From positions 1 to 64,000 of the forward strand of contig NZ_BCRT01000004.1 in the NCBI RefSeq assembly GCF_001552735.1: a DNA stretch of 64,000 bases. Direction: 5' to 3'. This document shows, in pieces, positions 14,925-45,450 of the stretch (positions are counted from its first letter, which is position 1; each line of letters starts with the position of its first letter). Source of the DNA: Sanguibacter suarezii NBRC 16159. Lineage in GTDB: Bacteria; Actinomycetota; Actinomycetes; Actinomycetales; Cellulomonadaceae. Position numbers and translations under genes: made by a program. Under the pieces are notes generated by a model. That model was not told the DNA's origin and did not search any database. It saw only the letters and a program-made list of their open reading frames with translations.

Positions 14925-15899
14925 CTAGAGGATGCTCGCGAGAGAGCCGAGGGCCTGGACAGGGTCGTCCCCGACCGGTTGCAGGACGACGCAGTCGGCG
15001 CCCGCAGCGCGCATCCGGGCGAGCGAGGCCCTGGCGTCGTCCCTCGTCCCGCTGACGGTGAGGGCGTCGACCCACGCGTCGGGCAGTGCCGCGACGAAGT
15101 CCGCCCGGGTGGCGGAGCGAGCCCGCAGCGCGACGATCTCGTCAGCGAAGGGCAACGGCCGCAGGTGGGCCTCCCAGCCGGGCTCAGCGATCCACTCGAG
15201 CCCCGCACGGACGGCTCGTCGGGCTACCTGGGGGTCCGCGTCGACAGCTGCTGCGTTGTAGACGACGACGCGGTGGTCGGCGGCCCCGATCTGCTGGCGG
15301 GCCTGTGCGATGTACTCGGGTGCGGAGGGCTCGGCGAGCACGGTGCCGTCGGCGACGCGTCCGGCGAGCGCGAGGGAGCGTGGTCCGCGGACCCCGGCGA
15401 GGATCGGTGGCGCGGTCCTGGGCCCTCCCTCGAGCTGCACGGCGTCCAGGTGCACGTACCGTCCGTCGACGCTCACCTCGTCGCCGGACAGCAGAGCGCG
15501 CAGCGCGGTGACATGCTCCTCGAAGGAGGTGAGGATGCTCTCCGGCCAGGCGCCCGCGCTCTGCATCCAGGCAGGCATGCCGTGCCCGATCCCGAGGTGG
15601 AGGCGGTCACCGAAGAGGTCGACGAGCGTCGCGGCCTCCATCGCCGTGAAGGCGACGTTGCGGGCCGAGGCCGGGAGGATCCCGACCCCCACCCGGATGC
15701 GTGAGGTGACCGCGAGCACCGCGGCCGCCTGCGCTATCCCGCCGCGGAAGCCGAGGTCTTCGACGACCCAGAGCTCGTCGAACCCTGCGTCGTCTGCTGC
15801 CCGGGCGAAGTCGAGGATCTGGTGGGCCGGGAGGTCCCGGGGGAGCATGATGCCGATCTCAGGGAGCGTGCTGTCCGGGGTTGCATCGTCACGAGTCAT
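14925..15899 (-). CDS. LLM-class flavin-dependent oxidoreductase
   Basis: A 324-aa luciferase-like TIM-barrel enzyme. It begins PEIGIMLPRDLPAHQILDFAR and has GFDELWVVEDL, RIRVGVGILP, ATLVDLFGDRLHLGIGHGMP and VDGRYVHLD, the strands and loops that bind FMN or F420 in this class. The substrate is unknown. It resembles the C-terminal domain of the fusion protein at 44020-45450 (shared TALRALL-GD-V-VDG and GPRSLALAGR-like stretches), so the two are paralogues. ATG 15899 is 7 bases from the minus-strand hexamer TACGCT (15907-15912), suggesting a leaderless mRNA. Confidence 0.9.
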   Translation of the reverse strand: MTRDDATPDSTLPEIGIMLPRDLPAHQILDFARAADDAGFDELWVVEDLGFRGGIAQAAAVLAVTSRIRVGVGILPASARNVAFTAMEAATLVDLFGDRLHLGIGHGMPAWMQSAGAWPESILTSFEEHVTALRALLSGDEVSVDGRYVHLDAVQLEGGPRTAPPILAGVRGPRSLALAGRVADGTVLAEPSAPEYIAQARQQIGAADHRVVVYNAAAVDADPQVARRAVRAGLEWIAEPGWEAHLRPLPFADEIVALRARSATRADFVAALPDAWVDALTVSGTRDDARASLARMRAAGADCVVLQPVGDDPVQALGSLASIL

Positions 15900-42132: not shown

Positions 42133-42558
42133 ATGACCTCCACCCGGCCCAGCGTCCTGTTCGTCTGCGTCAAGAACGGCGGCAAGTCCCAGATGGCCGC
42201 GGGCCTCATGCGCGCCGCGGTGGGTGATCGCGTCGAGGTGCACTCGGCGGGGACGGTGCCCGGCGGCTCGCTCAACGCCCAGTCCGTGGAGTCCCTGCTG
42301 GAGGTCGGCGTGGACATCCGCGACGAGCACCCTCAGCCGATCGACCCCGACCTGCTCTCCCGGGTCGACGTCGTGGTGACGCTGGGCCGTGAGGCCAGCG
42401 TCGAGCACGTCCCGGGCCCGCGCTTCGAGAGGTGGGACACCGACGAGCCCTCCGCCCGCGGGATCGAGGGCATGGAGCGGATGCGCCTCGTCCGCGACGA
42501 CATCGCCCGACACGTCGACGCGCTGGTCACGACCATGACGGGCACACCGTCCGCCTAG
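42133..42558 (+). CDS. Low-molecular-weight phosphatase-fold protein, ArsC-like
   Basis: A 141-aa protein of the LMW tyrosine phosphatase/arsenate reductase fold. The P-loop reads CVKNGGKSQMA, with Lys in place of the usual Arg; this form occurs in actinobacterial arsenate-mycothiol transferase-like proteins. DTDEPS near residue 100 carries the general-acid Asp. There is only one Cys, so any arsenate reduction would need an external thiol such as mycothiol/mycoredoxin (inference). ATG 42133 follows CAGACT by 6 bases. Confidence 0.8.
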   Translation: MTSTRPSVLFVCVKNGGKSQMAAGLMRAAVGDRVEVHSAGTVPGGSLNAQSVESLLEVGVDIRDEHPQPIDPDLLSRVDVVVTLGREASVEHVPGPRFERWDTDEPSARGIEGMERMRLVRDDIARHVDALVTTMTGTPSA

Positions 42559-42593
42559 CCGGTTCGCCGTACACCTCCCGCTATGGTCGGCCC

Positions 42594-44015
42594 ATGGCAG
42601 AGACGGCAGACCTTCCTGATCCCGTTCGGACTGAGGCGTTCCTCGATGCGGTCACCGAGTTCCTCGGGGTGATCACCACGCACGAGCACCGCAAGCGCAC
42701 GCGAGCCATCCCGACGTTGGCCACCGCGCTCACGGAGCATCTCGGCGTGGACGCGCGCCAGCTCTCGGTGCTCAGCGAGACGGTGAGCACGTTCCGCGCC
42801 GTCGACGCCGACGTCGCCGTGGAGGTCGTGGTCTCGCGGGCGGGCGGCGGGCGCCTGGTCGGCATCGGTGGCGGCGAGCACCGCCACCACGCGTCGCTCT
42901 CGGAGCTGATCGAGTCCTCGGCCATGATCGGCCACCACCCCATCGGTGCCGTGGACTACGAGTCCAGCTCGGTGGGTCCTGACACCGAGCGACGTGTGGT
43001 CGCCTTCGGCCTGCACCTCTTCCACCACAGCGGAGTCCCTGTCGCACTGCTGGAACGTGCGCCCCGCGCGAGCGCCGGGATGGACGGGCGGCTGGAGGTG
43101 GTCTCGACGGATGACGAGGTCACCGCAGCGGTTCTGGCGGAGATCCGCGCGACGATGCTCAGTCACAGCGTGCTGCGCGGTCAGGTCATCAGCTTCTCGG
43201 TGAGCCCCTACACGGCGTCGAGCGGTGGGGTCACCTTCTTGCGTCGCACATCCATCCCTGCTGAGGACGTGGTGCTCCCTGACGGCGCTCTCGAGCGCGT
43301 CGAGCGTCAGGTGCTCGGCGTGGCCAAGCACCGCGAGCGTCTCCTCGCAGCCGGCCAGCACCTCAAGCGCGGCGTGCTGCTCTACGGCCCGCCCGGGACA
43401 GGGAAGTCTCACACCGTGCAGCATCTGCTCGGCGCGGCACCGGAGGTGACGGCCATCGTCCTGGCCGGCCACGCCCTGTCGCTCGTCCGCCTCGCGACCG
43501 AGACGGCGCACGCGATGCAGCCGGCGATCGTCGTGCTCGAGGACTGTGACCTCATCGCCGAGGACCGGTCCTTCCACGACGGACCGCAGCCGTTGCTCTT
43601 CGAGGTGCTCGATGCGATGGACGGCCTGGGGCGTGACGCCGACGTCGCCTTCGTCCTCACCACCAACCGCGCCGATCTGCTCGAACGAGCACTCGCCCAG
43701 CGTCCCGGCCGTGTCGACCTCGCCGTGGAGATCCCCCTGCCCGACGCCCAGGCCCGACGCCGGCTCTTCCGGCTCTACGCAGCCGACCTGCCGTTCTCTG
43801 CCCGGGCTCTCAAGGACGCCGCGGACCGCACAGCCGGGGTCACCGCCTCCTTCGTCAAGGAGGTCATCCGCCGCGCCGTCCTGCTCGCCGCGGAGGCCGC
43901 TCGCGAGGTGGACGACGCAGCCCTTGAAGAGGCCGTCGCCGAGCTCGACGGCGACACGCAGCGGATCACCCGGTCCCTGCTCGGGACAGATGCAGGCACC
44001 TCGCCTCTACGCTGA
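42594..44015 (+). CDS. AAA-family ATPase
   Basis: A 473-aa protein. The N-terminal half (1-240) is unrecognised. The AAA module has Walker A GPPGTGKS (about 265), Walker B IVVLEDCDLI with Glu-Asp order instead of Asp-Glu, sensor-1 VLTTNRADLLERAL and the arginine region QRPGRVDLAVEIPLP, followed by a helical lid. It resembles proteasome-ATPase/BCS1-like AAA proteins. The target is unknown. ATG 42594 lies 6 bases after TATGGT (42582-42587). The Gpx-LLM fusion gene starts 4 bp after its stop. Confidence 0.88.
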   Translation: MAETADLPDPVRTEAFLDAVTEFLGVITTHEHRKRTRAIPTLATALTEHLGVDARQLSVLSETVSTFRAVDADVAVEVVVSRAGGGRLVGIGGGEHRHHASLSELIESSAMIGHHPIGAVDYESSSVGPDTERRVVAFGLHLFHHSGVPVALLERAPRASAGMDGRLEVVSTDDEVTAAVLAEIRATMLSHSVLRGQVISFSVSPYTASSGGVTFLRRTSIPAEDVVLPDGALERVERQVLGVAKHRERLLAAGQHLKRGVLLYGPPGTGKSHTVQHLLGAAPEVTAIVLAGHALSLVRLATETAHAMQPAIVVLEDCDLIAEDRSFHDGPQPLLFEVLDAMDGLGRDADVAFVLTTNRADLLERALAQRPGRVDLAVEIPLPDAQARRRLFRLYAADLPFSARALKDAADRTAGVTASFVKEVIRRAVLLAAEAAREVDDAALEEAVAELDGDTQRITRSLLGTDAGTSPLR

Positions 44016-44019
44016 CCTC

Positions 44020-45450
44020 ATGACTTTTCCCGACTTCGCCCTGCGCACCCTGGCCGGCACCGACGCCGCGCTGTCTGACTTCGTCGGCAAGGCACTGCTC
44101 GTCGTCAACACCGCCTCCCGGTGCGGTTTCACCCCCCAGCTCGCTGGTCTGGAGACGCTGTACACGACATACCGCGAGCGCGGCCTGGTCGTCCTGGGCT
44201 TCCCGTCGAACCAGTTCGCCGGCCAGGAGCCGGGTACGGTCGACAAGATCGCGGAGTTCTGCGAGCGCACCTACGGCGTGACCTTCCCACTCTTCGACAA
44301 GACGGACGTCAACGGTCCCTCCCAGCACCCGCTGTTCGCCCGCCTCACCCAGGCGCCCGACGCCGAGGGCACGGCCGGGGACGTCACCTGGAACTTCGAG
44401 AAGTTCCTCATCACCCCTGACGGTCAGGTGAGCCGCTTCCGCTCTGGGGTCGCCCCGGACGACCCCGCCCTCGTCGCGGCCATCGAGGCGGCCCTGCCCG
44501 ACGCCGCCCGCCCCCCGCGCATCGGCGTGCGCTTCGAGCCGGACTGGGCGCCCGAGGAGCTCCCGGCCTTCGCCCGCTGGGCCGAGGAGACCGGCTTCGA
44601 CGAGATCTGGTTCAGCGAGGACCTGCCGTGGGCTGGCGGCATCGCGATGGTCGCCACGGCGCTGGCCTGCACCGAGACCATCTCGGTGGGCATCGGTCTG
44701 CTGCCGGCGGTGACCCGCAACGTCGCGACGACGGCCATGGAGATCGCCGCGCTGGCTCGGATCGCCCCGGGCCGTCTGATCGTCGCCCTCGGTCACGGGA
44801 TCCCGTCGTGGATGGATCAGATCGGTGCGGGCACCCCGCGCCGGTTCACGGCGCTGGAGGAGACCACGACGGCGCTGCGGGCGCTGCTCGCCGGGGACAC
44901 TGTCACGGTGGACGGCTTCCACGTCCACCTCGACGGCATCCGTCTCGGCTTCCCGCCGGCGCAGGTGCCGCCGATCCTGCTCGGCACCACCGGTCCCACC
45001 GGGCTGGCCATCACCGGTCGCAGCTCGGACGGCGTGGTGCTCCCCGAGATCGCCCCGCCCGCTGCCGTGCGCTGGGCCCGGGAGGAGATGGCCGCGAGCG
45101 GCCCCGCCGCCACGACGGTGCTGTTCGCCATGACGAGCCTGGGCGACGACCGCGACAAGGCCCTGGCCCCGCTGCGAGCCCGGATGCAGCGCCTCGTCGA
45201 CTTCCGGGTCTTCGACCGGCTCACGGAGATCGCCGGCGTGGGGGCCGACGGCAGCGGAGAGCTGACCGACGCCATCCTGCAGTCCATCACCGTCGGTGGG
45301 ACCCCGGCCGACGGCGCCCGCGCGATCCAGGACTGGGCCGCCGCGGGGACGGATACCGTCGTCCTGGTCGCGGGGGCCGACGACCCTATGGAGAGCTACC
45401 GGCGCTTCGCCGCTGACGTGTTCCCGCTCATCGGGCGCACCTCCCGGTAA
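44020..45450 (+). CDS. Glutathione peroxidase-LLM oxidoreductase fusion
   Basis: A 476-aa two-domain protein. Residues 1-160 are a complete thiol peroxidase of the glutathione peroxidase family: Cys35 (ASRCGFT), Gln69 (NQFAGQEPG), resolving-type Cys81 (EFCERTYG), Trp124-Asn125 (DVTWNFEKF). After a linker of about six residues (DAARPP) the frame continues into a full LLM-class flavin oxidoreductase (167-476: RIGVRFEPDWAPEEL, GFDEIWFSEDL, ISVGIGLLP, LIVALGHGIP). No stop or plausible start codon separates them. The Gpx half would reduce peroxides with thioredoxin or mycoredoxin; the LLM substrate is unknown. A terminator follows. Confidence 0.88.
   Translation: MTFPDFALRTLAGTDAALSDFVGKALLVVNTASRCGFTPQLAGLETLYTTYRERGLVVLGFPSNQFAGQEPGTVDKIAEFCERTYGVTFPLFDKTDVNGPSQHPLFARLTQAPDAEGTAGDVTWNFEKFLITPDGQVSRFRSGVAPDDPALVAAIEAALPDAARPPRIGVRFEPDWAPEELPAFARWAEETGFDEIWFSEDLPWAGGIAMVATALACTETISVGIGLLPAVTRNVATTAMEIAALARIAPGRLIVALGHGIPSWMDQIGAGTPRRFTALEETTTALRALLAGDTVTVDGFHVHLDGIRLGFPPAQVPPILLGTTGPTGLAITGRSSDGVVLPEIAPPAAVRWAREEMAASGPAATTVLFAMTSLGDDRDKALAPLRARMQRLVDFRVFDRLTEIAGVGADGSGELTDAILQSITVGGTPADGARAIQDWAAAGTDTVVLVAGADDPMESYRRFAADVFPLIGRTSR

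Follow-up and report, generated by a model that had tools for sequence, protein, structure and literature searches.

The frame at 44020-45450 on the plus strand of the window (the whole stretch of 64,000 nucleotides of DNA analysed here) joins a Cys-type glutathione peroxidase (GPX) to a luciferase-like (LLM) oxidoreductase. It is a true, selected and rare domain fusion; both families are known, and beyond a second copy in the same genus the architecture was not seen in the collections searched. The best explanation of the whole is a real fusion in which a thioredoxin-type peroxidase lies beside a flavin-dependent LLM site, and to this reading we give a probability of about 0.45. That the gene makes one functional fused protein is, judged by itself, highly probable.

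Domains and active-site residues

The gene is a single uninterrupted frame of 476 codons plus stop. An earlier note on this DNA had described an in-frame GPX-LLM fusion of that length, and the description is borne out by the profile searches and by an uninterrupted copy in a second genome (G002); the product mass of 51 kDa given there becomes 50.3 kDa when calculated for the 476 amino acids. In the Pfam search, PF00255 (GSHPx) matched residues 5-109 with an E-value of 5.7e-32 and 110 bits (curated cut-off 27), and PF00296 (Bac_luciferase) matched residues 178-445 with an E-value of 9.9e-37 and 127.4 bits (cut-off 27.9). From these matches, the invariant residues, the solved chains and an AlphaFold model, the N-terminal Cys-glutathione peroxidase domain was placed at residues 1-162 (44020-44505, plus strand). 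A linker of about residues 163-166 (44506-44517, plus strand), delimited by comparison with G002 and by inspection for start codons, has no in-frame start codon, and the C-terminal LLM domain follows at 44518-45447 (plus strand), as judged from PF00296, the match to Mer and free-standing orthologues.

The catalytic tetrad of glutathione peroxidases consists of Cys or Sec, Gln, Trp and Asn, and the fusion has Cys35, Gln69, Trp124 and Asn125. Together with Cys81 these residues, which the earlier note had listed as a complete set, are invariant across 31 aligned rows, ie the fusion and 30 of the best 80 GPX loci from a scan of species genomes. The second cysteine of thioredoxin-type 2-Cys enzymes is also present, as Cys81 precedes YGVTFP in both fusions; we take its position to be that of the resolving cysteine, and Cys35 to be peroxidatic. 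Cys35, Cys81, Trp124-Asn125 and NQF at 64-66 are common to both copies. The nearest solved structures of the GPX half are 26jk and yeast HYR1/Gpx3 (PDB 3cmi). Like these Cys-type (non-selenium) enzymes it has the whole domain with Cys35, Gln69, Trp124 and Asn125, and its Cys81 aligns with the HYR1 cysteine before YGVTFP.

Within NCBIfam, the GPX equivalogs scored below their cut-offs (PRK10606, 166.5 vs 270; Gpx7, 94.3 vs 207.3), as did all the LLM models listed (for example 90.9 vs 213.65), including the F420 subfamilies TIGR03841 and TIGR03555; the nearest LLM models were PRK02271 and TIGR03841. Since every model is below cut-off for either half, neither can be assigned to a named equivalog, and membership of the GPX family at large rests on PF00255. 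AlphaFold ten-residue block means were 70-96 over residues 1-160, the GPX half being well folded in the model, and 23-67 in the LLM half, which the prediction failed to fold from an alignment that had no LLM relatives. The best solved match of the LLM half is Mer (1z69, 8qq8; E = 4.6e-25), with which it shares the whole PF00296 domain by profile, and from this homology a TIM-barrel fold is predicted. Unlike Mer and the LLM family, the LLM half lies inside a fusion without its own start codon, in a host without CofD. The sequence shows a 2-Cys-type glutathione peroxidase followed by an LLM oxidoreductase, both of them intact, within a single frame that is under selection.

A second copy in the same genus

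Six genomes of the genus were searched, and one other than the window's own (G000) has the same protein: G002 matches over residues 1-474 with 85% amino-acid identity (404 of 476 aligned residues) and no stop. Between the two copies dN/dS is about 0.19 overall. For GPX codons 1-158 the pair of values is 0.126/0.435 (about 0.29) and for LLM codons 168-476 it is 0.067/0.462 (about 0.15), ratios which indicate purifying selection on both halves. The linker of G002 is two residues longer, by a 6-nt indel which keeps the frame.

An assembly or sequencing artefact, in which neighbouring genes were run together by erroneous loss of a stop, might be suspected because the sequence around the junction is rich in GC and contains a run of C. 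A diverged second genome has the same fusion with a different in-frame linker length, however, and for that reason a sequencing slip is rejected and the fusion is judged genuine; lost-stop readings are rejected on the strength of the uninterrupted G002 copy. The GPX and LLM genes are, moreover, not neighbours in the relatives examined, so loss of a stop alone would not create the fusion, and we regard an artefact as extremely improbable. Separate adjacent genes with a stop at the junction, which the earlier note had named as the case against a fusion, were sought and not found in the loci examined.

Distribution and origin

No third protein spanning both domains was among the matches listed in searches of 221 genomes of the family, 396 of the order, 394 of the class and 396 of the phylum. 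These sets overlap, the cut-offs were increasingly strict (1e-20, 1e-58, 1e-62 and 1e-66, respectively), scoring was limited to the best 4 to 7 of each genome's candidates, and a fusion whose LLM half had diverged strongly could appear as two hits and escape. In the scan of 84,980 species genomes the best 80 loci all matched the GPX part only. In total 109 loci with GPX were examined, ie five records of the two fusions and 104 others (the best 80 of the species-genome scan, 20 of the family and four more). Unlike the fusion with its C-terminal LLM domain, all 104 free-standing Cys-type GPX loci stop at query positions 160-186, near the end of the GPX domain, and no LLM relative at E ≤ 1e-10 was present in their 2.3-8.6 kb of DNA. 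LLM relatives were found in 22 loci: five are records of the fusions, and the remaining 17 correspond to 12 places, none of which had a GPX near the free-standing LLM gene within the locus DNA examined. An adjacent, unfused gene pair as ancestor was thus not found in these loci. Likewise, the LLM orthologues of G479, G345, G020 and G188 have no convincing GPX within 9.5-16 kb; a hit in G479 (28% over 68 residues, E = 0.001) was discounted. Some GPX rows of the family search ran past stops to query residues 210-233, mimicking a following LLM domain, but in three of these loci (L107, L112 and L121) the LLM query gave a best E-value of only 0.35 and the extension is therefore a matter of chance.

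No mobile source came to light: none of 227 matched plasmid records and none of 14 matched phage records covered 80% of the query in one place, and two scans of viral contigs confirmed no relative. No description of the GPX-LLM architecture was found in searches of the open-licence full-text literature. Within the genus, a GSHPx match occurs in exactly the two fusion bearers among the six genomes, one in each, and the fusion is that sole match. The earlier note knew of no comparable architecture, and beyond the G002 copy none was seen in the collections searched. The gene fusion is genuine and looks lineage-restricted, having been met in only two species of a single genus so far.

In the GPX tree the fused GPX lies outside a clade of 20 proteins from the same family (clade support 97/93) and beside G693, a long branch from another family of the class (92/95). 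The bootstrap was unsettled, and the larger group around the fused GPX and G693 is weak. Free-standing LLM orthologues show 60-71% identity to the LLM half, which is closer to those of G479 (71%) and G345 (65-66%), members of other families of the order, than to those of its own family, in a branch order that is unsettled. Most simply, the two halves would have entered from outside the genus, or would have been lost elsewhere in it, and a single event would have joined them.

Start codons, promoter and neighbouring genes

There is no ATG, GTG or TTG between codons 138 and 169 of the fusion. The first candidate start for the LLM half is a GTG at codon 170 (codon 172 in G002), which lies inside the conserved first LLM strand and has no Shine-Dalgarno sequence. 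A separate product from an internal LLM start is thus judged unlikely. Ahead of the fusion ATG itself a Shine-Dalgarno sequence is also absent, and TACGCT (44008-44013, plus strand) stands six bases before it, with TAGGCT at the same spacing in G002. Both are of the type TANNNT, which we take to be the actinobacterial -10 element. Upstream of 86 GPX starts (from 106 loci, 20 having been dropped because the match did not reach the start, the start codon was a different one or too little upstream DNA was available) TANNNT occurs at exactly six bases in 22 and at seven in four, both fusions being among these 26, and at the remaining spacings from 4 to 11 bases in none; the background in the same loci is about 0.0008 per position. 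A Shine-Dalgarno-like stretch precedes 36 of the 86. A general scan for sigma-70 promoters and terminators found nothing. The box suggests a leaderless mRNA for the fusion, which probably has its own promoter although an upstream frame ends only four bases before the ATG. Over the whole set, the 26 boxes suggest that leaderless GPX mRNAs are common.

That upstream frame encodes an AAA ATPase (42432-44015, plus strand) which is absent beside the fusion in G002, where an AbiEi/AbiEii type IV toxin-antitoxin pair (L127:10793-12299) takes its place, with the AbiEii gene as the upstream frame. The differing upstream genes argue against a conserved operon, and an operon with a conserved upstream partner was rejected; the position immediately ahead of the fusion varies between the two genomes. 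Downstream and convergent is a gene of the NADH:flavin oxidoreductase/old-yellow-enzyme family (PF00724; 45533-46609, minus strand), syntenic in G002 and matched in five of the six genus genomes. An empty site was sought around it in G001, G003 and G004, and the other flanking genes were missing there, bar one 172-residue match in G001. No pathway shared with the fusion is apparent from the neighbouring genes. The window also contains, as the earlier note had reported, an LLM paralogue without a peroxidase (14925-15899, minus strand), which matches PF00296 and is 41% identical to fusion residues 156-465. It too has a TACGCT, seven bases before its ATG.

Cofactor of the LLM half

According to a passage in PMC6279831, the LLM superfamily includes FMN and F420 enzymes, the latter thought to derive from an FMN-dependent ancestor. 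The capacity for F420 synthesis was assessed by profile searches for Cof proteins in 13 genomes, matches being counted at E ≤ 1e-3. CofD was matched in eight of the 13, among them three other members of the genus, and was without a match in G000, G002, G005, G018 and G479. Strong CofH matches were confined to G003, G004 and G345, all below the model cut-off; G000 has a 19-bit fragment, and the other nine have none. CofE is present in all 13 genomes, above its cut-off in 12. For the set taken to mark F420 synthesis (CofD, CofH/FbiC and CofE), the host thus has CofE, no CofD and a mere fragment of CofH, and in G000, G002 and G005 no CofD lies within 14-16 kb of CofE. It is therefore probable that the fusion hosts do not use the known pathway to make F420.

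CofE without a CofD match is seen in G002 and G005 as well as in G000, where it adjoins an LLM protein of the F420 glucose-6-phosphate dehydrogenase family, with no CofD nearby (G000:C15:214947-216674, corresponding to L141:7948-9674). In G001, G020, G023, G184 and G188, CofD and CofE are above their cut-offs and CofH has no match at E ≤ 1e-3, as if FO were imported or made by an unrecognised enzyme.

Our best guess is that the LLM half is flavin-dependent, with FMN more likely than F420, because the superfamily holds FMN enzymes and the hosts probably lack the known F420 route. The earlier note had allowed F420-linked reduction coupled to peroxide removal. In such an F420-linked enzyme the LLM domain would use F420 as hydride donor or acceptor and couple it to peroxide or hydroperoxide metabolism. 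The homology to Mer suggests F420, F420 enzymes account for all six solved chains matched by the LLM half at E ≤ 1e-10, and F420 LLM models give partial matches, all below cut-off. The host LLM protein beside CofE scores above the cut-off for the F420 family TIGR03557, and the LLM orthologue bearers G345, G020 and G188 have CofD; with CofE and an F420-family LLM retained in the host, F420 could come from outside. Neither CofD nor a convincing CofH is found, however, in G000, G002 or G479, the last of which bears the 71% LLM orthologue, the host CofE has no CofD near it, and the LLM protein beside it scores best with the FMN-dependent model TIGR03885, though below its cut-off. The F420-linked reading is thus disfavoured and appears unlikely.

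Proposed function

The preferred reading, a peroxidase beside a flavin site, would work as follows. A leaderless mRNA would be translated into a single polypeptide. Its GPX half would reduce H2O2 or organic hydroperoxides through Cys35-SOH, after which a Cys35-Cys81 disulphide would form and be reduced by thioredoxin; such thioredoxin-type peroxidase activity, predicted from the residues, is likely. The LLM half would act as an oxidoreductase, probably with FMN. The fusion would place the peroxidase beside a flavin site able to leak H2O2 or, alternatively, beside a hydroperoxide or alcohol substrate common to both sites. Scavenging of H2O2 from the flavin domain, which the earlier note had suggested and with which the sequence is compatible, or the passing of a hydroperoxide or alcohol, would be plausible, and direct functional coupling of the two sites can be put forward only tentatively. 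Natural peroxidase fusions exist, for example peroxiredoxin-glutaredoxin hybrids. Like those hybrids, the present protein links a thiol peroxidase covalently with a redox partner; unlike them, its partner is an oxidoreductase of flavin or deazaflavin type and no thiol reductant.

The two enzymes may instead keep separate, unrelated jobs and be merely co-produced from a leaderless GPX-type promoter. Each half is complete, the second follows the first end to end, and free-standing relatives exist for both. Since only two genomes bear the fusion, it may have been fixed by chance, with no functional coupling. Against such a neutral fusion, the frame has been kept under selection while the copies diverged to 85% amino-acid identity, and we consider it a serious contender at somewhat less than even odds. 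A bolder proposal, which seems improbable at present, is a new class of two-domain enzymes whose thioredoxin-type peroxidase and flavin-dependent LLM oxidoreductase would act as a single catalytic unit, eg with a (hydro)peroxide made by the LLM site converted to an alcohol at the GPX site, so that one chain would be a net oxygenase/reductase.

A fusion is often a sign that two enzymes cooperate. In this genus GSHPx is without a match in four of six genomes and occurs in the other two only as part of the fusion. If the two sites are coupled, the fusion would offer a natural solution to the leakage of peroxide from flavin monooxygenases, and would give a hint to the role of this LLM subfamily, testable through its free-standing members plus GPX.
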